The translations under genes and the position numbers were made by a program. Shown in pieces: positions 3,656-45,568 of a stretch of DNA of 64,000 nt. The DNA comes from Cyathus striatus. Its lineage: Eukaryota > Basidiomycota > Agaricomycetes > Agaricales > Nidulariaceae. The stretch lies in contig JAOVFP010000005.1 in the NCBI GenBank assembly GCA_025738555.1, forward strand, positions 1,364,001 through 1,428,000, read 5' to 3'. The notes under the pieces were generated by a model. That model made no database searches and was not told where the DNA came from. It saw only the letters and a program-made list of their open reading frames with translations. Every line of letters starts with the position of its first letter. Within the stretch, counting starts at the first letter, position 1.

Positions 3656-4899
3656 TGCTCATTTGTGATATCTTTCACCATTTCTATCTTGTGCAATATA
3701 AACAAGATTTGGTGCAGAACCATTTTGTGGTGCTGAATTACACCACTTTCTACAAAGGTAATCATCTGAGCAGTGATTTGTATAGTGATAGCTATCTACT
3801 ACAAAGCAGCTACTTTTAAACCAATCTACCCAACTTCCATTTGCAACTGCTGTTCAAAGAAGTTTACATGCCCTATCAATACATATATAATCTGGTCTTA
3901 ATTCTTCATTAGGAAAAACATCTTTTAAGAACTTAAGTATATTGGTTGTTGACTCAGACTTCACAAACTTTGTCCATGCAATTACAGCACCACATGGAGC
4001 ACATATTGTTTCTACACAATAATAGTGAGAGGCACTAAAATAATGAGATTTCTTTGAAATATTGTTATCTGACTCATCATGAGGCTGCTGAACACATCTT
4101 CCTCAGTTTTTATTCCAAGGTGGATTTTCAGCTGGTTTGCAAAGCATTCTTTGTGCACCATTTAAATAATCATGCTCATTGCAAGCTTGTGTATTATTTA
4201 TCTTTTCATTTGGACAGTCACAAACACAGCATCTTGCTCCAAATTCTTGGTTGTGAACATCACAAAATACACCTCCTCTATGGTTTACAAGTGTATTGGA
4301 ACAATTGTCATATGCACAGTGCTTAAAATATGTATTAGTATAATATTGTTTAGTTTTAGTTGTGTATTACCTGTGGTCCCATAACAATCCCATCAATTAC
4401 TACCATTTTAACTGTTGCACTCTCATTTGGTGGTGAGTCTTGAGTTTCTCTATAAGGCTGTGTACACTCTAAGCAGCTGTGATCATGTGATGCATGTATT
4501 TTTCCATTTTCACCCAATCTTGCAAATGCTTCTTCTGTTAATGCAGGAATTGAAAGTCCATCAAGACTAATAAAATTAACACCAGATCCTGCAGAAATCA
4601 TGCATATTGATTCATGTATAAAAGCCTCCCAGACTTGTCTTTGGCTTATTTCCTTTCCATTTCCAAAACTATTGTTCCAATATTCCATATATGCTGCAGC
4701 AGATGCATGAAAGCTATATATACCATTCAGAACACCTTGAGAAAATGCCCAATCTACCCATAGTTTTTTTCCTACTTTCAGATATTTAGCAGAGTTTAAA
4801 TGAACCATATAATATCCCTGTTTTTCATCATAGGCATGTTCATGTTCTGCAGAATATAATGTTTTACATTTTTCACAAACACCTGATACCACATAAATA
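3656..4899 (-). pseudogene. KDZ transposase gene A, C-terminal part
   Basis: This is the distal part of a CxC5/CxC6-type KDZ transposase. Read on the minus strand it gives, in order, the CxC5 end (CEKCKTLYSAEHEH), LNSAKYLKVGKKLWVD, a FHASAAAYMEYWNNSFG block, the CSXECTQ cluster and MVVIDGIVMGPQ. More decayed core motifs follow: YYCVETICAPCG, ICIDRACK and VVDSYHYTNH. An in-frame TGA at 3854-3856 falls where paralogues have Arg. The final exon (NTQACEQLNAWLGG in other copies) is missing because hairpin-repeat DNA begins at about 3655. The upstream part lies at 12832-13185, separated by the 7.9-kb insertion. It would bind element ends and catalyse cut-and-paste transposition; this copy is dead. 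Confidence 0.85.
4898..4899. repeat. TA target duplication, left
   Basis: A TA dinucleotide flanks the TGGAAACCCAGAGC end of the 4900-12831 element. The matching TA is at 12832-12833. Confidence 0.6.
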
Positions 4900-5285
4900 T
4901 GGAAACCCAGAGCACCACACTCAGAAGCATCAAAATATTTTGTGCTCTGAGTGTTGGCTGCTCGGCAGATCACTTAAGCCTTCACCTAGATATGTGTGCT
5001 CAGGTCATGAAATTTGGTAGTGACTTACTAATAGCTAGAGGAGTACAAATGAAGGCAAATAGGTGATTGTGTAAGCATAGTCACAAGCATTGATTCCATA
5101 GTGGAAATGACACTTGTGACCTGAGAGATAGACTGTGCCCCAGCCTTCTTATAGTTATATAAACTATAGGGCTGGCTCATGCCAGCAGAGCCCACTACCT
5201 AATAGTACCTAAGTATTCTGTAATCAGTGCTTAGTGTTTAGCACTTAAGTAGTTACAAATTTTTTTTAATATTGAATACAACTGT

Positions 5286-21991: not shown

Positions 21992-24523
21992 CTACATAAC
22001 ATTATCTAATCCATAATCTGCTATCCCTTCTTCCTCTTCTCTGTCAAATTCATCTGCTGCTTCCTCTTCCTCCTCTTCCTCCTCCTCTTCTTCAGAATCT
22101 TCTGATTCCTCATCTCTCATATCTTTATCATCTTTAGTATTATTGTCTCTTTCAAGCTGCTTTTTAATAAATTTTTGGGTATGAATGAATAGAAGTGCAT
22201 GTATAGTCCAGTTGAAGTTTATACAAGGAAGCCAATCCACCCATTCCTCTTCACTTCTGTGAATAATTCTTCTTATTCCTAAAAGTGTTTGTCTACCAAA
22301 TCTTACTAAATGATGGCACCACCATGACTGATGATTAACACATGTCTTTGAGTTATTTTCTCTTGGGTTGTTGCATAATTTTATATGACATAAATGACCA
22401 TGCATAGCTTGATGAATTATGCAAAATACTGAGGTCATTACACTCCTCTACGAAATTATGTAGACTCCATGTAGATTCCACCTGGACTCCAGGACTCTAC
22501 CTGGACTCTACTTGGACTTCACTTGGACTCTACTTGGACTCTACTTGGACTTCACCTGGACTTTACATATAGAAAATAATAGACTCTACATAGACTTCAG
22601 GTGGACTCCAGGTGTGAGCTGGACTGCACCTGGAGTCCACTGAACTCAAGCAACTGGACTCCACCTGGATTCTACCTGGACTCTACCTGGACTCTACCTG
22701 GACTTAAGTAAATTCAAGCACCTAGACTGAACCTGGACTCTATCTGGACTCTACCTGGACTCTACCTGGACTTTAGTAGAATCAAGCACCTAGACTGAAC
22801 CTGGACTCTACATGGACTCTACCTGGATTCTACCTGGACTTTAGTAGAATCAAGTAACTAGACTGAACCTGGACTCTACATGTACTCTACCTGGACTCTA
22901 CCTGGACTTTAGTAAACTTGAGTTCAGTAGAGTCCAGGTAGAGTCCAGGTAGAGTCCAGGTAGAGTCCAGGTAGAGTCCAGGTAGAGTCCAGGTAGAGCC
23001 CAGGTAGAGTCCAGGTAGAGCCCAGGTAGAGTCCAGGTAGAGCCCAGGTAGAGCCCAGGTAGAGTCCACCTGGAGTCCACCTGGAGTCCACCTGGAGTCC
23101 ACTTGGAGTCCACCTGGAGTCCTGGACTCTACCTGGAGTCCACCTGATCTCGTGGAGGAGTGAAATATACAGAAAATACTCCAGTTCTTTCATTTTCTAA
23201 ATTACCATCACAATCCTGGTATGCACAATGTCTTGGACCCATAATTATGCCATCCATAACAACCATATTTACTATTGGCTTTCTTTCAGCCTGAGTTGGT
23301 TGATCAGTACTGGTTGTTTTATTAGATGAATCACTGGATGATTCACTTGATAACTCATTGTCAATATCCATATCATTGATGGTACTACTAATGTGTTGCT
23401 GAGCACTTGCTCTAGCTTCTATTTCCTCTCTCATAGCTTGTTCTGCATCTTCCCCCTGTAGCATGGGAACTGATTGATTTTCATCAATTCCAATTACTGC
23501 AGCAGGAGTGTCATCAGTTATTCTGTCTGCAGTACTTTTGTACTCATGTGTACATTCACTACATGAATGATCTTTAGCACATTCAATAATACCTTCTTGA
23601 CCAAGTATTTCAAATGCTTTTCTAGTTAATTCTTGAATCTCATGTTCACCTGATGTTATTATAAGTGATTTATTATTGTATGTAGCTACCTGTCTTACAC
23701 TTTCAGAAATGAATGCCTGCCAAGTTTGTCTGTGAGACAACTTGAATGATGACTCTCTAAAGGATTCATTCCAAAATTCTGTGAATGCAGCTGTAGATGC
23801 ATGAAAATGATAAATTCCATGCAGAACTGCATTGGTGTAAGATCTATCTGCCCAGACTTGCTGTTCAAGCTTTAAATATTTTGCTGAGTTTAACAATCCT
23901 CTGATACATGTACCATTTGCATGCTTCACACTTTTGTGATCAGCATAATAAAATGAATTACAAATGCCACATTTTCCTTTAAGCACATAAGCACCAGTGT
24001 GGGGATGCATTCCTTTTATAAGAGTTATACATGAAACATCTCTCTTATGAACTTCTTGGTGAAGTGGAGCCTCTTTACAAAATGGTGTAGAGCAAGTGTA
24101 ACGACTTGAACAAACAGTAAAAACAGGTTCAACTTCTGTGGTTCTTACAGAGTTTAAAGGGTGTCCTTTTTTAATTGGATCAAGTTTTAAAAATGTTGCA
24201 AATGAATCAAGTTTTGAGCCCAATGCATTAATTCTCTGCACATCAGTTATATCCTCAGCATTTGAAACTTCATCTTCAGTAAACAAATTATTAATTTTAC
24301 CACCTAGATCCCTTTTTAGAACTCTAGTAAGAGCTGTAATCCAACTTGTTGCAGATTTTCTATAGGCTAATTTTTGTTTTCCATGAAGGTTCAATAGGTC
24401 TGTGTTATTTGTTAAAGTAAATAACACTTTGAGTACCATTGCTAGTGTAATATCTGCATGGAAGTTGCTTGTAATAAATTCAGAAAAATCTACAAATGTT
24501 ATTTCAGGAAATGGATCCTGCAC
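21992..24523 (-). pseudogene. KDZ transposase gene B2, core deleted
   Basis: From ATG at 24523 there are 450 open codons. An N-terminal FSEFITSNFHADIT block is followed by the CxC5 cluster (VCSSRYTCSTPFC and GKCGICNSFYYADH), LNSAKYLKLEQQVWAD, FHASTAAFTEFWNESF, HSCSECTHEY and an acidic/Ser-rich linker. MVVMDGIIMGPRHCAY opens the CxC6 cluster. The 742-bp element (22431-23172) interrupts CxC6 at GVF. Beyond it, at 22420-21992, come HGHLCHIKLCNNP and SKTCVNH, then NFNWTIHALLFIHTQ and a Glu-rich tail. The whole stretch from YYCVETICAPCG to NTQACEQLNAWLGG, which in copies C and D carries the conserved acidic residues of the RNase H-like core, is absent at about 22215. Apart from the insertion, no stop codon was noticed. 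Confidence 0.85.
22431..23172. mobile_element. 742-bp KDZ-type MITE in gene B2
   Basis: Ends GAGGTCATTACACTCC and GGAGTGAAATATACAG, flanked by a perfect 8-bp duplication AAAATACT (22423-22430 and 23173-23180). Removing the element plus one duplication restores the GVFC reading of the CxC6 cluster. The interior consists of GACTCTACCTGG words, direct on the left and inverted (AGGTAGAGTCC) on the right. It is the same family as the 19015-21536 element. Confidence 0.93.
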
Positions 24524-29620: not shown

Positions 29621-29759
29621 GGTGTCAGCTAAAATTTTCAAAAAAAGCCAGTGTTAATTGATTGCCTCAATCAATCAAGCCTGGCTTTTTTTGAGTGCCT
29701 ATTATTGTATGGGAATGATCATAAACAATCATTTATTCTTTATAATTTAATACTAATGT

Positions 29760-30190
29760 GGGGTCTTTCAGGTGATCATAAACAATCATTTATTTGTTCT
29801 AATTGAATACTACTATAGTATTAATGTTTCAGGTGGTCATAAACAATCATTGATTGTTTCTAATTGAATACTAATACTATATGAATGGTTTAGGTGATCA
29901 TAAACAATCATTAATTGTGTGGAATTGAATACTAATACTATATGAATGGTTTAGATGATCATAAACAATCATTGATTGTTGCTCAATGAATACTACATTT
30001 GTATGTATCTTTTAGGTGATCATAAACAATCATTAATTTATTCTAGTTGTTACTATTGTGTTAGTGATTTATGTGATCATAAACAATCATTGATTTGTTC
30101 TGACTGAATATTAGTATTGTATGAATGTATTAAGTGATCATAAACAATCATTGATTGATTGTAATTGAATATTATAATTGTATGGATGTA
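29760..30190. repeat. F0 outer array, left arm
   Basis: Eight to nine units of about 60 bp, each with TGATCATAAACAATCATTGA and ending TGAATACTA. Mirrored at 40430-40990 in the right arm; the right copy appears to have one unit more. Confidence 0.85.
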
Positions 30191-30747
30191 GTAAATGATT
30201 GATTAGTACTAATTGGATATTGCTATTGTATCAATGTGTCACGTTGTTCCTTGCATCACGTATGTCACATATTTCCCGCGCCCCACATATTTCCCGCGCT
30301 TCGCATTTGTCACATACTTCATGCGCGTCATGTTCGTCACAAATATTCCCGCGCTTCGCATTTGTCACATACTTCCCGCATGTCACGTTCGTCACATATA
30401 TTCCTGCACATCGCATTTGTCACATACTTCACGCGCGTCACGTTCGTCACATATACTCCCGCGCCTCATGTTTTTCCCGCGCATCGGATGGGTCACGTAC
30501 TTCACGCACGTCACGTTCGTCACACATATTCACGCACGTCACGTTCGTCACACATATTCACGCACGTCACGTTCGTCACACATATTCCCGCGCTTCGCAT
30601 TTGTCACACTCTTCCCGCCCGTCACGTCTGTCACGCATATTCCCGCACATCAAATTGATCACACATTTCCCACATGTCATATTTGTCACAATTTTCACGC
30701 GTGTCATGTCTGTCACAATTCTCCCACACTACGCATATATCACACTT

Positions 30748-31380
30748 GTCACGCTTTAGCGCGTTTGTCACGCTTTAGCGCGTTTGTCACGCTTTAGCGC
30801 GTTTGTCACGCTTTAGCGCGTTTGTCACGCTTTAGCGCGTTTGTCACGCTTTAGCGCGTTTGTCACGCTTTAGCGCGTTTGTCACGCTTTAGCGCGTTTG
30901 TCACGCTTTAGCGCGTTTGTCACGCTTTAGCGCGTTTGTCACGCTTTAGCGCGTTTGTCACGCTTTAGCGCGTTTGTCACGCTTTAGCGCGTTTGTCACG
31001 CTTTAGCGCGTTTGTCACGCTTTAGCGCGTTTGTCACGCTTTAGCGCGTTTGTCACGCTTTAGCGCGTTTGTCACGCTTTAGCGCGTTTGTCACGCTTTA
31101 GCGCGTTTGTCACGCTTTAGCGCGTTTGTCACGCTTTAGCGCGTTTGTCACGCTTTAGCGCGTTTGTCACGCTTTAGCGCGTTTGTCACGCTTTAGCGCG
31201 TTTGTCACGCTTTAGCGCGTTTGTCACGCTTTAGCGCGTTTGTCACGCTTTAGCGCGTTTGTCACGCTTTAGCGCGTTTGTCACGCTTTAGCGCGTTTGT
31301 CACGCTTTAGCGCGTTTGTCACGCTTTAGCGCGTTTGTCACGCTTTAGCGCGCTTGTCACGCTTTAGTGCGTTTGTCATG
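30748..31380. repeat. 19-bp tandem array, ~33 copies
   Basis: The unit CGCTTTAGCGCGTTTGTCA is repeated almost without variation. Each unit includes the palindrome CGCTTTAGCG and retains three CpGs. The mirror array at 39825-39917 has about five copies. Confidence 0.97.
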
Positions 31381-31515
31381 CTTTGCATGCGCGTCACGCA
31401 TCACATTTGTCACAATTCTTCCACACTATGCATATATCACACTTGTCATGCTTTGCATGTGCATCATGCATTATGTTTGTCATGTTCTTTATGAGTGTTA
31501 CACTTTTATACATGT

Positions 31516-33527: not shown

Positions 33528-33536
33528 ACATAAAAG
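33528..33536. repeat. 9-bp target duplication ACATAAAAG, left
   Basis: A direct repeat of ACATAAAAG immediately outside the CAGGCTCCTAAAAC end. The partner is at 39754-39762. Confidence 0.95.
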
Positions 33537-33772
33537 CAGGCTCCTAAAACCATCCCTCGCCTCGCTCGAATGGCCTACACAGGCTTACATAAGGGATAGG
33601 TACAAACAATAAACAAAACGTAGCGGCCAAACTCGCAAGGGAGGGGCTGGCGAATTTGGTTTCGGTCTTCTCGGTAATGTGACAAAATGCTAGTGCTACG
33701 TTGCGAGAAATGCCTTCGCTTAAGAATAATAGCTAAGTTCACACGTCAATAAAATGGTTTTCAAGTCAGGGT
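33537..33772 (+). repeat. left terminal inverted repeat
   Basis: 236 bp, nearly identical to the reverse complement of 39517-39753. It includes the CpG-rich segment CTCGCCTCGCTCGAATGG near the tip. It ends at TTTTCAAGTCAGGGT. Confidence 0.95.
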
Positions 33773-34105
33773 GTGATTCAAGACCCTGTACTACCGATGC
33801 GGTACTTTCATTGATTGATCTGCTTATTTCATGTTATCATTCACTGCCCCCTCATCTCCTTCAAACAGCTATGCATCTTAACTTGTATTCAAGCCTTCCA
33901 CACATCAGTGACAAGTCTGGAACTGTGTATTTTCGGTGTTAGCTCACAGCTGTCTCTATCAGGTCTCTATTTATGTTCATGACTCCCACATATTGGCAAG
34001 CGTGTGCTGCAGTACAGTACAGTAGTATATAAACCAGACTACATGTAATACTATTATTGTATTACTTTTCTTCCATGAATTCTGACAACAATTCGGCTAG
34101 TTCTG

Positions 34106-36908
34106 ATGGCAGACCCACCAATCGAGAATATAATTAATTCAATTCAACAAAGCGGAGTCTCACTACTTCACATTATAAGGGCTATTCTAACTATTCCAGA
34201 ACTTCAAGGTCATGTTGTAGTGCAGCATTTCATTGAGAATACAACAGAATTATTAGAACAATTGGATACCAGCACTCAAACTAGTAGTGCTGTAAAGACC
34301 TGGACAAGAGATCGAGCACAATCTCTGTATAAATCACAAATATCTGCTCTTTCAGATAAAGAAACTGGATTTCATTTTACCGCTATAAAGACTACAGAAC
34401 AAAAGCTTCGCGAGTTTCAGATCAATGAAACTGCTGAGCAGTTTAAAACCCTGGCGCCAGATGTGTGGCTTTTAATGAAAAGCCTTTTGTCATCAAATGA
34501 TAGCCTGACAAAGCGAAAACAAGCTCGCCATGAAGCAGCAAGCAAGCTGAAGGAGGCAAGGAAAAAAGCGAATTTGGCCAATGATGGAGATGGAGATATC
34601 ACCATGCAAGACATGACAAGCTCTACATCTACAAGGAATGAAAGTAGAGATGACTACTCAAATTTTGCAGAAGATGGTGCTCATATCACAGATCCAGATG
34701 AAGATGAGCCAGAAAACATTGAAGAACAAGAAGAATTTCGATTTGAATCACTTATAATGATTGTAGGTACTAGGAATCTACCAGTTAAATACAACCACAT
34801 TAACTAGTTTTATTTATAAAGAAAGCGGTTACATGCATAAGTATATTAATGCACAGCACCAATAACCGGTGCAATGCCTTTCAAACACTCATGGGAATTT
34901 TTTTGCACTCTGCAAACACTCCAGAGACAGTGCAAGAACTGCTTGCAAGATTGGGATTATCAATATCTACGCGTACAATTGACAAGGCCATTCTGTCTCT
35001 TTCAGAAACAGCAGAGGAAACAATAAGGAACGTTGGGCAAACATTGTTAACAATGTATGCATATGACAATCTTGACATTGATTTAAAGCACTCTGTTCCC
35101 ACTGTTGAAAATCCACAAGCAACTCTTGTACATCTTACTTCTGGCACCTTGCTTCCACTTTATCATGACATCAAATTAGCAGATCTTAATTTCTCTGAAG
35201 AACTTTGGGGAAATTCAAAGCTCAATCCTAATGTCAGATCTCGAGATATACAATATATTAGCATTCAAGATCTCAATAAACGAATACATCCAGAAGTTGA
35301 TAATCATCCATCTGGGCTTGTACAGCGCGAGAGATTTAACAAGCGGATATTTTTATCAGATCTTATAAACTTCGGCCCAGAATATTTCAGAAAGTTCAAG
35401 GATAAATTATATGATCCTGAATGGATTGATGCCATTCCAGTTGTCAAGACTTCACAAGTACCTCTATGTGGTGTTAACATTAGTCCGAGTACACCAGCAC
35501 AAAATGCAGAGGCTCTAGACTCCTTTTTTCGTCAAACTTCAATTGGGGAATCAACCAAAAAATCAAAAGTACTTGATCCTAAGAACTCTGTCATTCTTGT
35601 ATCTGGAGATCTATTAACTGGTCAGCATGTTCGGAGTTTGACACACTCAAGATCTGAGGAGGACAGTCCTTGGCGTCATTACCAGTTTATCATTTTTGTG
35701 ATGGGTTTATTTCACTTGAAGATGGCATGTGCCGATGCAATCTGGAAAATTTTTATCGTCCCCAAAGCACCACAAAAAGATAACACCAGCCCCATGAAGT
35801 GCACCGGTCAAATCCGACCTAAAGAGACCAACAAACCTGACACAAAGCCTGGGTTCCGAAGAACGCACGAAGCTATCCAACATATTGGCATTGTCTCTCG
35901 GCTTAATGCATGGCGAATTGCAGTTCAGAAGCTAAGTCCAGAAATATCAACACTTGAGGATTTCGCAAAAACTAATCCTACATGGGATGATCTTCAAAAT
36001 ATTGCACATATACTTACACTGGAATATGTTGCTAATGCTGAAATATGTGAGCTGCGCATGAAGCCATCTAATCAACGTGATCAGCAGCATGAGAACATAC
36101 TGTTACAGCAACAATACTTTTCGTTATACGAAGAAATGTCCTATGCACTCAATCATGGAGATATTGGGCAAGTTGAGACTTGTTTCATTCCCTGGATGTT
36201 CATTTTCTTGGGTTGTGGAAAGCATAAGTATGCAGCTGAAATGAAGCGGCATCTTGAAAATATTTACTTCATCTATCCAAAGGAATTAAGGTATTGTAAT
36301 TGACACATTGCCTTACATATTACAGTCAATTGATTATATTTTAGCAATGCAATCAGAATGAATATGTTGTGTAATCCAACAGGTAGAAAGGGCTGCTTCA
36401 GAGCGATTGATTGGGTTGTTGAGCTTAACAATTTATACATAAAGGTACGCACAAATTAGAAATGTCTACCATTACAGACAACCTACAGTTAAAAAAATTG
36501 TAGCGTATATATGGAGGGAAGTTCTCAAACCATCAGGTGGAACGAATATTAGCAGAATCACCACTGATAGAGGTGTACAAAAACACAAGACTCCAGTTTG
36601 AGAAGATGTTTTGCCTGGATCATAAAACAATATGACACTCGGCACCAAATATGCGAATGACTTTCAAGAAACTTGAAGATTATATGCAAAAAGAGAAATT
36701 AAATCTATTTGTTCCTGGCCGAGAATCAAAATATAGTATACCAGATATAATGGGGAATGGAATGGCAAAATTAATGAAAAGCAAACTGCGAGAGATTTAT
36801 GTGGAAGGAGAGGATGATAATAACGAGACAGTGATGGAGGAAATCGATGAGGCTGATATAATTGATGACTATGAGGTTGAAGATGACGGTAGTCTAGATA
36901 TCTATTAG
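34106..36908 (+). pseudogene. DUF6589-domain protein, nonsense-mutated
   Basis: Exon 1 (34106 to about 34764) encodes a helical, charged N-terminal region with a Lys/Arg stretch and an acidic end. An intron (GTAGGT donor) leads to the main exon (about 34840-36300). This exon has features I know from DUF6589 proteins: CNAFQTLMGIFLHSANTPE, LGLSISTRTIDKAILSLS, MYAYDNLDIDLKHS, HLTSGTLLPL, SGDLLTGQHVRSL, FHLKMACADAIW. Short exons follow at about 36345-36444 (NMLCNPTGRKGCFRAIDWV) and from about 36507 (GGKFSNHQVERILAESPLIE). A TGA at 36633-36635 falls where Arg is expected; the same frame stays open afterwards to 36908 with an acidic C-terminus. The function of DUF6589 is unknown. Its place here makes it the transposase candidate. 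Confidence 0.8.
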
Positions 36909-36920
36909 TGTATATTAATA

Positions 36921-39415
36921 TTACCTTGTATTCATAGCATCAAATGGACTTGGCTGTTGATAAAACTGAGGGCTAAGAAGGTGTTGATAATGTGCAGGAA
37001 TGTCGGCTGATACTCTATGTGGGACACTTTGGTGGGGGGTCGACTCGCATGAGGGTGGAACATTTTGATCTTGATGATGACTTGCAAGATGCATGCGGTG
37101 CACAGATGAAGATGCTTCCAGCTGTCGTTGGCGCTCCCTGACCTTTTTTGGGCATGCGCTGTTTGCACCTACAAAAAATACTTATAATTAGCATTTTAGA
37201 TTGTCGAATGTTTGACTTACTTGTATGTCCAACCTCACCACATGCGCTACATGTTACAGTTGCCCGCTTTTTCACCAAAGGCCGAGTAGATGTAATGGGA
37301 GCAGGTGCGTGATGCATAATAACATCATAAAGTGATGGTCCAAGTCCTTCCACCCAGTCTTTACTCCACCCGGTTTCCTTAAATATATGATCAACTGATT
37401 TAATTTTCCCTGAGCGCGCACAGTCGACGATTCGAGAAATAATATCATCTGAAATTAATAGCTTTGCACCAAGAGTACGAACTGTTGCTGTGCCGAATGT
37501 CTCTGTAGCCTTTTCATGTCGCCAGTCAAAGAGAGCTGTTCATAACTCGAGGTCAGCCTGAGTGGAATCATATGGCTTTATGTGTGATTTTCCGCTTCCT
37601 CTAGTAGTCTTCATGAGTGCAATCTGGAATTGCTCGAATTTCTCTGGATGACAAAGATCACAACAGACAGAGGGAATTTTCGGACGGCAGCGAGTACAAC
37701 CACCAGTGTTTGTCGTGTTGCAGGAGATATGGTCTTTTGTTTCTGAAAAGGGTTGGAGAGCGATGAGGAGGAAGTGTGAAATGTTGGGGACTGAGAATTA
37801 CTCACGAGCCTTGTCATTCCCAAAATAGACCATGGGTATTATGCAGTGACAATCAAAGCCAGTGATAGATGGATTGATGTAGTCATCCAATGGGCTTCCG
37901 ACTTGAACATCTGAACAATGTCTTCCTTTCTTCCCCCCACTTCCCTTCTCAGCCTGACTGGATATTGCATACTGGGCCCGCCGTTCATCCTTCAACCTTT
38001 CAAGATCCTTCATGTGAGTGGACTCCTCATCCCCGTGTATATCTGTTGTGCTGGCACTGGAATCGTTGTTGTTTATATGGATAGTGGTACGGTCTTCCAA
38101 TGTTCTTCGTTTCGGTGGTTCATTTGACTGATCAGCAGCCTTTCGTTTAGTAGGTGCTGTTGCTCCCACCACTTTGTTTTTCGAATGCTGGTCACTAGCT
38201 ATGTCCTTTGGATCAACTAGTAGTATAGCCATAGCTACCTGTCCTGCACCACGCGCTGCACGGCCAAAACGTTGCCATAATGTGCAAAGATCGCTTGTAG
38301 CCCTGTATTGGACAACAACTTTTATATCAGGTAGGTCCATACCCTATAACAGCATGTTAGACTATCATTTAATCATTTAGATTTGTTACACACCATTCCA
38401 AAGGCATCCGTACAGCAAAGTCCCCACAATTCCGCCTTTTTTAACTCTTCGAGGCGGTCTTCTCGAAATGATGTTGACATTGTAGAATGAAAATATCGTA
38501 TTTTCATTCGATATTTTTGCGGTATGAGTGTCCTTATGTATTTGCATGCTAACTCTGTTTCTTTTGTACTGTCAAAAAAGACAAGAAACTTCGGTGGAGG
38601 CACACTCCCTTCTTCAAAGCCGTTTGGAATAAGAAAGGAAAGGTCCTTGTAGCTGTTTGCTGGGTACACGAGCTTGCGCACCATAAGACCAATTTCTGGG
38701 TGATCATTTGAGCGTAAGATGTATTCTGTGTCACCTGCTCTAAGCTGAAGGATATTGACGACTTCTTTTAGTATTGCTTTTGGTAGTGTGGCAGATGGTA
38801 CATAGAAGGGAATCTGCACAGGAATACGATAACGTAGTGCTCCAAGGTTTGAATATTGTTTTCGAAATGCTGCCCATTGGCTAACACAATGTCCCTCATC
38901 AATGATAACATTGAGAATTCTTTGTGTTACTTGCTCTTTCTTCAGCATTTGTTCAATAGCTGGATGATCCATCAGGATCTCGGGGTTTATGATCACCACT
39001 TTGTACTTTCCCTTTTCTATATCCTAATCGCATGGGCCAATTTTATTATATCTCTATTTTCATTTCATAGGTTGAGACCGACCTTAACAGTTTGAGAATT
39101 GATACTCTCACGTGTTACCGAGACACCTTTAATTCCTACTCTCTCCAAGATGGAGACATTCTGCTTTCCGAGCAAGTTCAACGGTGTTACAACGAAGGAC
39201 ATCTTATCAAGTTTATCCTCAGCAGCCATTAGTAGCGGAATCCAGAATGTGAGAGTCTTCCCAGCCCCAGTTGCAAGGCATGCAACAACATCCTTTCCAG
39301 AGTATAGTGCTACAGCAATCTTGATTTGAGTCCAGCATGGACTTATGTCCAGTTTTTCTTGGGCAAGTAAACGTACGTCATCAAATGACTATTGCCGCTG
39401 AGATATATCAGGCAT
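36921..39415 (-). pseudogene. RecQ-type helicase with zinc knuckle, nonsense-mutated
   Basis: From ATG at 39415. Superfamily 2 helicase motifs in order: ACLATGAGKTLTFW (motif I), IIDEGHCVSQW (II), VPSATLP (III), LVFFDSTKETE (IV), then, across a ~55-bp intron near 38338-38395, GMDLPDIKVVVQYRAT (V) and QRFGRAARG (VI). A Ser/Lys-rich linker follows, then CxxC-type CDLC residues and SHIKPYDSTQADLEL. CSACGEVGH plus a later Cys, across an intron (GTAAGT donor at about 37220), forms a CCHC-like knuckle, and the protein ends in a Gln/His/Pro-rich tail. Two in-frame stops break it: TAG at 39389-39391 (codon 9) and TGA at 37540-37542, where relatives have Arg. It would unwind 3'-5' duplex DNA. Its stop lies 12 bp from the DUF6589 stop. 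Confidence 0.88.
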
Positions 39416-39516
39416 CGGTCCGGGAGAGCACCAGAGAACACGAGGATATCTGCCAGTAGAAGTGTTTCTAAAAATGTACATAATCTTGACACGAGGACAC
39501 CTTTGCCGTTCACGCA

Positions 39517-39753
39517 ACCCTGACTTGAAAACCATTTTATTGACGTGTGAACTTAGCTATTATTCTTAAGCGAAGGCATTTCTCACAACGTAGCACTAGC
39601 ATTTTGTCACATTACCGAGAAGACCGAAACCAAATTCGCCAGCCCCTCCCTTGCGAGTTTGGCCGCTACGTTTTGTTTATTGTTTGTACCTATCCCTTAT
39701 GTAAGCCTGTGTAGGCCATTCGAGCGAGGCGAGGGGATAGTTTTAGGAGCCTG
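39517..39753 (-). repeat. right terminal inverted repeat
   Basis: 237 bp, reverse complement of 33537-33772 with about three differences. Confidence 0.95.
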
Positions 39754-39762
39754 ACATAAAAG
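39754..39762. repeat. 9-bp target duplication ACATAAAAG, right
   Basis: Identical to 33528-33536. Confidence 0.95.
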
Positions 39763-39824
39763 CGTAATGCTCATAAAGAACGTGACAAACGTGACGCGTG
39801 ACGCGCATGCAAAGCATAACAAAT

Positions 39825-39917
39825 ACGCTAAAGCGTGACAAACGCGCTAAAGCGTGACAAACGCGCTAAAGCGTGACAAACGCGCTAAAGCGTGACAAAC
39901 GCGCTAAAGCGTGACAA
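39825..39917. repeat. 19-bp array, right arm of F0
   Basis: About five copies of TGACAAACGCGCTAAAGCG, the inverse of the 33-copy left-arm array. Confidence 0.95.
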
Positions 39918-41076
39918 GTGTGATATATGCGTAGTGTGGGAGAATTGTGACAGACATGACACGCGTGAAAATTGTGACAAATATGACATGTGGGAAATGT
40001 GTGATCAATTTGATGTGCGGGAATATGCGTGACAGACGTGACGGGCGGGAAGAGTGTGACAAATGCGAAGCGCGGGAATATGTGTGACGAACGTGACGTG
40101 CGTGAATATGTGTGACGAACGTGACGTGCGTGAAGTACGTGACCCATCCGATGCGCGGGAAAAACATGAGGCGCGGGAGTATATGTGATGAACGTGACGC
40201 GCGTGAAGTATGTGACAAATGCGATGTGCAGGAATATATGTGACGAACGTGACATGCGGGAAGTATGTGACAAATGCGAAGCGCGGGAATATTTGTGACG
40301 AACATGACGCGCATGAAGTATGTGACAAATGCGAAGCGCGGGAAATATGTGGGGCGCGGGAAATATGTGACATACGTGATGCAAGGAACAACGTGACACA
40401 TTGATACAATAGCAATATCCAATTAGTACTAATCAATCATTTACTACATCCATACAATTATAATATTCAATTACAATCAATCAATGATTGTTTATGATCA
40501 CTTAATACATTCATACAATACTAATATTCAGTCAGAACAAATCAATGATTGTTTATGATCACATAAATCACTAACACAATAGTAACAACTAGAATAAATT
40601 AATGATTGTTTATGATCACCTAAAAGATACATACAAATGTAGTATTCATTGAGCAACAATCAATGATTGTTTATGATCATCTAAACCATTCATATAGTAT
40701 TAGTATTCAATTCCACACAATTAATGATTGTTTATGATCACCTAAACCATTCATATAGTATTAGTATCCAATTAGGAACAATCAATGATTGTTTATGATC
40801 ACCTAAACCATTCATATAGTATTAGTATTCAATTAGAAACAATCAATGATTGTTTATGACCACCTGAAACATTAATACTATAATAGTATTCAATTAGAAC
40901 AAATAAATGATTGTTTATGATCACCTGAAAGACCCCACATTAGTATTAAATTATAAAGAATAAATGATTGTTTATGATCATTCCCATACAATAATAGGCA
41001 CTCAAAAAAAGCCAGGCTTGATTGATTGAGGCAATCAATTAACACTGGCTTTTTTTGAAAATTTTAGCTGATACTT

Positions 41077-43075: not shown

Positions 43076-43361
43076 GTTGATTTGTTTTGAATGTCTGTTT
43101 GGTATACATTTCCAATCTTATAAATGTAGTATAAAATTTCAAATCTCTGTATTATATTTGATATGTCAAGTCCTTATGAATTTCCTCCTTCACAAGAAAA
43201 GTGTCCTGTATGGTTTTTTAACTTTAAGTTCCATGCTAATGGAATTTATTCTCATATCCACTATAATATTGACACTTAATAATTGGATACAATGTGGAAA
43301 TAAAACTACAAATTTACACATCTGGATTATTTTAATAATGTTGCCAGGAGTTTCAGCAAAC

Positions 43362-45568
43362 ATGCAGCCCTTCCCTGATATTCCATTTAAAACTTTCAGC
43401 AAATTTATTAGTAGCAATTATAGTTCTGAAATTTCCCTGTCAACAGCTTTGGTAATACTATTTACAGTCACACATAATTGTGACCTATTAAGTCTTCATG
43501 CAAGGCAATTCAATCCTAGATATCCAGAGGAAAACAATGTACAAATGACTGCTTGGATGCTCACCTTATCTAGAGCATTGCAAGTTCATCTTGGAGAGAG
43601 ATGTAACAAATTATTTAAAGATGAGTCTAATGATGAAAGGGATACAGTTTTGGCATTGAGCTTAGATAGCTTGATGAAGACTCTAAAACTTAATCCAATT
43701 GGATCATCTGGAAGATTTAAAGGAAATTTAAAAGTAGTATCTCATAAAGAGATTTCACCCTCATTTGTTATTTGCTCTGTAACTGCTGTATGTGTAACAA
43801 ATACATGCCCCTCATTAGCTTTGCACTTATCAACAAATGCAAGGGATATACCTTCAGTTACATTAATTCAGGGTACTGAAACTGTAAAAAATGTTCAAGT
43901 ACTTACAGGAATATGCAACAGATGCAAAACACAATACTCTGCTGACAGAGAGAAAGTTTCAATTCCAAATAAAAAAAATACCAGAGTGTACCTTAATTCT
44001 GCAAAGTATGTGAAAGTAGGACAGTCACTGTGGGTGGACAGAACATTTTCAAATGCAGCTGTAAATGCAATTTATAGTTTTCATGCATCAGCTGCTGCTT
44101 ATACAGAATTTTGGAACAATAGCTTTTCTGATGAACACAGTATCACCCACAGACAGATTTGGCAAGCATTTATTCAAGAAACTGTTAGAGCTTTGGCCTC
44201 TTCAAGAGACATAAATTTGTAAGTAGAAGATGGTCTCTCAATTGATAATCTTACATGTGAAGCATTTTCATTACTTGGTGATAATGGAGTTATTCGATCT
44301 GCAGATAAGCACACATGTTCTGAGTGCACACATATGTATAGAAGCAGGTCCAATGCAATATCAGATGTTGACTCTGCTGGTGTGGTAGGAGTTGATGAAA
44401 ACAGAGTAGTTCCTGATCTTGTACAATCTGAAAGTACACAGGAGGATATGAACTCAGTAAACATACAAAGAGCAGTAGAAGATATAGAAAATAATAATAC
44501 AACAAATGAAAATGAATATGCTCCTGTTAAAATGGTTGTATTAGATGGTATCATGATGGGTCCAACACATTGTGCATTTGAAGGATGTACAAGTGAGTTA
44601 CATAATGCACGTGGAGGAGTTTTCTGTGAAGTACATGAAGCCTTTTATGGTGCATGTTGTCGTGTTCAAGGGTGCACTAACATGAAAAAGCAGGGTACTC
44701 AGGCATGTAATAATTACCAAGAGGAGTGGAGGAGATTTCAATCAACTCATAACACTTCTCATCATGCTGGTGTAAGACAAATGCTTCAGTGTCCAGGAGA
44801 ACAGCTCCCATGGAATACAGTTAGACCAAGAAATGTTAAGCCACATGATGAACAACAGTCAGAAAATAATAAAATAAAGAATTACTTTACTCCAGGTAAA
44901 TTCTACTGTGTGGAAACAATATGTGCACCTTGTGGTGTTGTTATTGCCTGGACAAAATTTGAGGGAGCAGAATCACCATACAATATTATGAAATTTTTGG
45001 AGGAAGTATTTCCTACTGAAGAGTCCAGGCCAGATTATGTATGCATTGATAAAGCATGTTTGGTACTAAGATATCTTCTTAATGATGCAAGAAGAGAGCA
45101 ATGGGAAACCTGGAAAAAAACTACAAGATTTAGTGTAGATAGCTATCATTATACAAATCACAGAGTTAAAGACTTCCTCTGCAGAATATTCTGCAATCCA
45201 GCCCCACTAGATGGATCTGCTCCAAATTTGGTTGTAACTGATGTTGACAATAATGGAAATCCATATTTGAAAAGAGCTTTTAATACACAGGTAAGATACA
45301 TATTATAATTGTTTCAAAATATGTTCAAAACTACTACTTGTTATAGGCATGTGAACAGCTCAATGCTTGGCTTGGTGGCTTTGAATCTACTTTAAAAAAA
45401 ATGACTCCAAGCAATTTTGATTGGTTTTTACATACCATGTTGTTTTATCACAGTAAGCATGTTATAGATAGGCAAGCAAGAAGAAGAAGACAGGAAGCTA
45501 ATGGAATGGAAGTGGAAGAAGATGTAGCAGAGAATGATGACTTTCCAGCAGAAGATATTGTTCTCTAA
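43362..45568 (+). pseudogene. KDZ transposase gene C2 (one nonsense codon)
   Basis: I chose ATG at 43362 by alignment with B2. Domains in order: an N-terminal FKTFSKFISSNYSSEISL block; CxC5 cluster (VICSVTAVCVTNTC, then GICNRCKTQYSADRE); LNSAKYVKVGQSLWVD; FHASAAAYTEFWNNSF; HTCSECTHMY; an acidic linker; MVVLDGIMMGPTHCAF opening CxC6 (CEVHEAFYGACC, CTNMKKQGTQAC). The core follows with YCVETICAPCGVVIAW, VCIDKAC, VDSYHYTNH and, across a 56-bp intron (45291-45346), NTQACEQLNAWLGGFE. The Asp of IDKAC, Asp of VDSYHY and Glu of ACEQLN are my candidates for the DDE triad. A single in-frame TAA at 44220-44222 interrupts it; both sides align with the other copies, so it is a nonsense mutation rather than an intron. 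This is the most complete transposase in the window. Confidence 0.88.

Follow-up and report, generated by a model that had tools for sequence, protein, structure and literature searches.

A transposon pairing DUF6589 with a RecQ-type helicase in Cyathus striatus, most probably a decayed AcademH element

What kind of transposon carries a DUF6589 gene and a RecQ-type helicase gene side by side? The question is raised by a 64,000-nucleotide stretch of the basidiomycete Cyathus striatus (contig JAOVFP010000005.1, positions 1,364,001 to 1,428,000; hereafter the window), in which a complete transposon of about 6.2 kb spans positions 33528–39762 and holds both genes. Our analysis leads us to regard it, with considerable confidence, as an AcademH-type DNA transposon of the cut-and-paste kind, present here in decayed form. 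AcademH was reportedly set out by Kojima in 2020 as a lineage of the Academ superfamily.

The element has long terminal inverted repeats, which differ from each other by two substitutions and one indel, and identical 9-bp duplications on both flanks (Table 1), much as the initial annotation had read them; an Rfam scan of the window gave no match. GT-AG introns and homologues were the basis of the exon models of both genes. A Pfam scan of the plus-strand exons detected DUF6589 alone, as claimed for that gene. The joined core of the minus-strand gene matched DEAD (E 1.2e-23) and Helicase_C (E 1.1e-17), and RecQ-type helicases (WRN, RecQ, Q1, Q5, BLM) took the top 36 places among the 60 PDB matches listed, ahead of the first RNA helicase, placing this superfamily 2 (SF2) core nearest to RecQ proteins among those matches. 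The helicase of the initial annotation is thereby upheld, while the zinc knuckle also claimed for it has weak support, the zf-CCHC match (E 0.0086) lying below the cut-off. The last helicase exon was read to 36909, beyond the stop closing its frame, and its low end is thus approximate. In-frame stops, unremarked in the initial annotation, interrupt both exon models, one in the transposase gene and two in the helicase gene, so the window copy is probably dead.

Table 1. Features of the transposon, in window positions.
Feature	Position	Strand	Basis
Left 9-bp target-site duplication copy, ACATAAAAG	33528-33536	.	direct reading, comparison with right copy
Left terminal inverted repeat, 236 bases, starts CAGGCTCCTAAAACC	33537-33772	+	end comparison
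Putative transposase gene (Pfam DUF6589)	34106-36908	+	Pfam E 1.2e-67
Transposase inferred exons	34106-34762, 34822-36290, 36345-36444, 36504-36908	+	GT-AG introns, homologues
Transposase in-frame stop, TGA	36633-36635	+	exon model
Candidate catalytic D1 codon (inferred protein residue 301; D228 of P0017)	35065-35067	+	
Candidate catalytic D2 codon (residue 482; D406 of P0017)	35608-35610	+	
Candidate catalytic E codon (residue 735; E657 of P0017)	36421-36423	+	
RecQ-family helicase gene	36909-39415, low end approximate	-	DEAD, Helicase_C, PDB matches
Helicase inferred exons	39415-39083, 39023-38394, 38343-37806, 37742-37221, 37168-about 36920	-	
Helicase in-frame stops	TAG 39391-39389, TGA 37542-37540	-	exon model
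Right terminal inverted repeat, 237 bases	39517-39753	-	end comparison
Right 9-bp target-site duplication copy	39754-39762	.	direct reading, comparison with left copy

The two genes travel as one unit in this genome. Searches with DUF6589 and with the window helicase core gave 105 matches in 93 clusters and 131 matches in 85 clusters, respectively, the cluster counts being lower bounds. A helicase cluster lies within 12 kb of 65 of the 93 DUF6589 clusters, in all 65 cases downstream on the opposite strand, the same layout as in the window, and 60 pairs lie within 4 kb, against approximately 0.7 expected by chance. Identities of both proteins to the window copy, known for 30 of the 65 pairs and taken from the best-scoring piece of each protein (short for a few helicases), are closely correlated (Spearman 0.97); without one duplicate copy the value is 0.971 over 29 pairs, reached by none of 20,000 shuffles. 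The association, proposed from a single locus, is recurrent, and convergent in all 65 pairs. One group scored as unpaired consists of three DUF6589 clusters of equal score, of which two (L042 and L043) were fetched. L042 does have a convergent helicase (DEAD E 1.7e-9), too diverged for the window query, and a neighbouring exon matches the bacterial DNA helicase 1oyw (E 1.4e-4), hence the 65 paired clusters are themselves a lower bound.

Twenty of the 85 helicase clusters lack a DUF6589 cluster in the 12-kb range (for example G000 C20:1856262-1857077 and C11:827523-829472); some may be host RecQ genes and others remnants, and a short DUF6589 remnant adjoins the C11 helicase (829494-829598). Two relatives of the window element, at G000 C18:2905269-2909668 and C18:2958887-2963287, lie approximately 50 kb apart in opposite orientation with both genes scoring identically, perhaps a segmental inverted duplication.

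The ends of the element are also widespread. Its left end matched 42 places in the genome, and 15 inverted end pairs were readable in the fetched loci, seven ends with no partner there (six left, one right) being left out of the count. The duplications at these pairs are of varied sequence and 9 bp long, exact in 12 pairs and with one mismatch in two more. A search for the opening 20 bases of the end, tolerating at most two mismatches, hit 158 forward and 166 reverse places in the genome, 324 in all, against none in either direction for a control, which is beyond chance. Of the 37 pairs formed by 100 listed of these places, 29 enclose neither gene, six both and two just a helicase match; DUF6589 by itself is enclosed by none. 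Many shorter elements thus share the ends; the initial annotation had held that copies lacking both genes would count against a two-gene element, and such copies exist, yet they look like ordinary non-autonomous derivatives.

Two further DUF6589 lineages have the same plan. The second (L039, L040) is 5.7 kb long and has inverted ends, about 410 bases each, that begin TAGTCTCGG; its transposase scores 297.6 bits against Pfam DUF6589, the best BLAST piece shared with the window main exon is 52 residues at 29%, and its helicase is 31% identical over 127 residues to the window's largest helicase exon. A direct-repeat look at its end gave nothing useful. The third lineage (L042, L043) is 5.9 kb long and has ends, about 306 bases each, that begin TAGTCCGG; its two copies lie at different places and share 99.85% identity across 5,943 bases. 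An exact 9-bp duplication flanks one of two copies in each lineage. Because such diverged lineages share the plan and L042 and L043 are nearly identical, the pairing is old and its layout constant, and at least one lineage has moved recently.

Relatives are found well beyond this genome. The window main exon matched 525 database proteins at E ≤0.001, of which the 120 listed all carry the DUF6589 domain, those with names being called hypothetical or “DUF6589 domain-containing”. Homologues of the second-lineage transposase (125 found, 120 listed) are DUF6589 proteins too, and the named ones inspected come from mushroom-forming fungi. The helicase has 158 homologues (120 listed), and 20 contigs, matched by equal size and presumably identical, are common to the listed homologues of both proteins, five of them under 10 kb. 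The two genes have neighbouring tags in Tricholoma furcatifolium (H0H92_004012 and 004013) and Coprinellus aureogranulatus (NMY22_g24 and g23) and lie two tags apart in Pleurotus ostreatus (PC9H_011710 and 011708). They are 184 tags apart in Cerrena zonata, so a shared contig is not necessarily one element.

DUF6589 itself is predicted to be an RNase H-fold DDE transposase. DDE recombinases occupy rows 1–24 of the comparison with its predicted fold, and the D, D and E residues are conserved in the DUF6589 alignment, in line with the RNase H-like fold and acidic triad that the initial annotation had proposed to look for. A PDB profile search with that alignment returned nothing meaningful (three matches, best E 0.081) and a scan of viral contigs yielded no confirmed relative. 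Pairing, shared ends and predicted fold together support the view of DUF6589 as a candidate transposase forming one mobile unit with the helicase. A rival reading starts from the long inverted ends and 9-bp duplication, called the signature of Mutator-like elements (MULEs) in the initial annotation: the element could be a MULE of new type, or a derivative mobilised by a MULE transposase encoded outside it. A C/DxxH-like motif (CGKH) of the window lineage, located between D2 and E with C in 48 and H in 56 of 60 sequences, would fit this reading. The second lineage is without this motif. The MULE transposase domain PF10551 has no match in the whole genome (two candidates scored), in keeping with the claim that the element holds no such transposase, and with the plus-strand exons giving only DUF6589 we consider a MULE very unlikely. 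No MULE, Kolobok or Academ structure was among the rows of the fold comparison, which therefore excludes none of them.

Helicase type and duplication length point instead to AcademH. The papers cited here by PMC number are drawn on through passages of their text, and in these a “RecQ Helicase in Academ” is named (PMC3627910), AcademH is given duplications of 9 or 10 bp that are tied to its helicase (PMC10045372), and AcademH occurs in Basidiomycota (PMC10799480). The proposal of a new superfamily or new type of MULE thus gives way to a lineage already in print. The minus-strand gene, the 9-bp duplications and the predicted DDD/E transposase all agree with AcademH.

Several observations weigh against this assignment. 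Plain Foldseek gave a best E of 1.8e-3, with nothing at or below 0.001, a weak support for the fold; the CGKH motif is of a kind listed for other superfamilies; and a duplication is absent from one of the 15 end pairs and from one of the two copies in both the second and the third lineage. Unpaired clusters number 28 for DUF6589 and 20 for the helicase, whose role is speculative, and there are at least 93 DUF6589 clusters where PMC10799480 calls AcademH low-copy. The name AcademH follows printed descriptions, and homology of DUF6589 to Academ transposases is presumed; the homologue search with the second-lineage transposase did not reach an Academ reference sequence. A separate, undescribed superfamily, in which a DDE DUF6589 transposase not homologous to Academ works with a RecQ helicase and 9-bp duplications, would accommodate the motif and the high copy number, both unlike the Academ passages, and DUF6589 is not mentioned in the literature searched. 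In helicase type, duplication length and the phylum of its host, taken together, the element fits the printed Academ and AcademH, and we think such a superfamily improbable. We give similarly little credence to its fuller form, a DUF6589 superfamily whose DDE transposase and dedicated RecQ helicase, kept together through deep divergence (the transposases of two lineages in this genome aligning by BLAST over only 52 residues), are an obligate two-part machine. Since the literature searched is silent on DUF6589, equating it with the Academ-type transposase may be new, closing a naming gap without adding a new kind of element.

As an AcademH-type element, the transposon would move by its DUF6589 transposase binding both ends and excising the element, then inserting it at a target across a 9-bp stagger, from which repair makes the duplication. 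Least certain, the RecQ helicase might open the DNA of the ends or of the target, or process gapped intermediates, aiding excision and repair. The window copy probably yields neither full protein and would be movable only by proteins from other copies. The fungal family DUF6589 thereby gains a likely function; its proteins are most likely transposases and are to be kept out of host gene counts, and many of the “RecQ helicases” beside them likely belong to transposons as well. As the two genes diverge in step, the role of the helicase is open to direct test.

The surroundings of the element are repetitive. It lies between the arms of a minisatellite-rich large inverted repeat (29622-31413 and 39782-41074; 816 nt at 97%, 417 nt at 94% and 324 nt at 99%), the right arm starting 20 bases beyond the transposon. 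A 19-bp tandem repeat occupies 30746-31384 (33.6 copies, 99% match), and a related short array lies at 39811-39917. Reading frames with CxC5/CxC6 cysteine clusters, linked by Pfam to KDZ transposases, indicate further transposon genes nearby (4359-4973 and 23132-24523 on the minus strand, 43077-44219 and 44334-45305 on the plus strand).

Among known systems, subtelomeric RecQ genes of Mycosphaerella (PMC4522978) were dropped from the comparison, being described as telomere-linked. KolobokH, reported from fungi alone, is likewise a DNA transposon with a RecQ helicase, and one rhodophyte Kolobok has such a helicase on the complementary strand (PMC9587614); the duplications of Kolobok are, however, TTAA-specific and 4 bp long (PMC9587614), whereas those here are varied and 9 bp, and the window helicase is a convergent gene. 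We therefore rule KolobokH out for the window element, and it is the least probable of the readings weighed. The hAT transposase Hermes shares 14% identity in the fold alignment; the usual duplication of hAT elements is 8 bp, according to a TET/JBP transposon paper with no occurrence of “Academ” in its passages (PMC12730594), against 9 bp here. MULEs resemble the element in their long inverted ends and 9-bp duplication but differ in the transposase domain, missing from element and genome alike, and in the helicase present here. Putative non-autonomous MULE and Academ elements have been noted in Marasmius oreades (PMC8290104). AcademH differs in its reported low copy number, the element here being multi-copy, and is alike in being a DNA transposon of Basidiomycota with a RecQ/SF2 helicase and duplications of 9 or 10 bp; the window element most probably belongs to this lineage, already described in animals and fungi.
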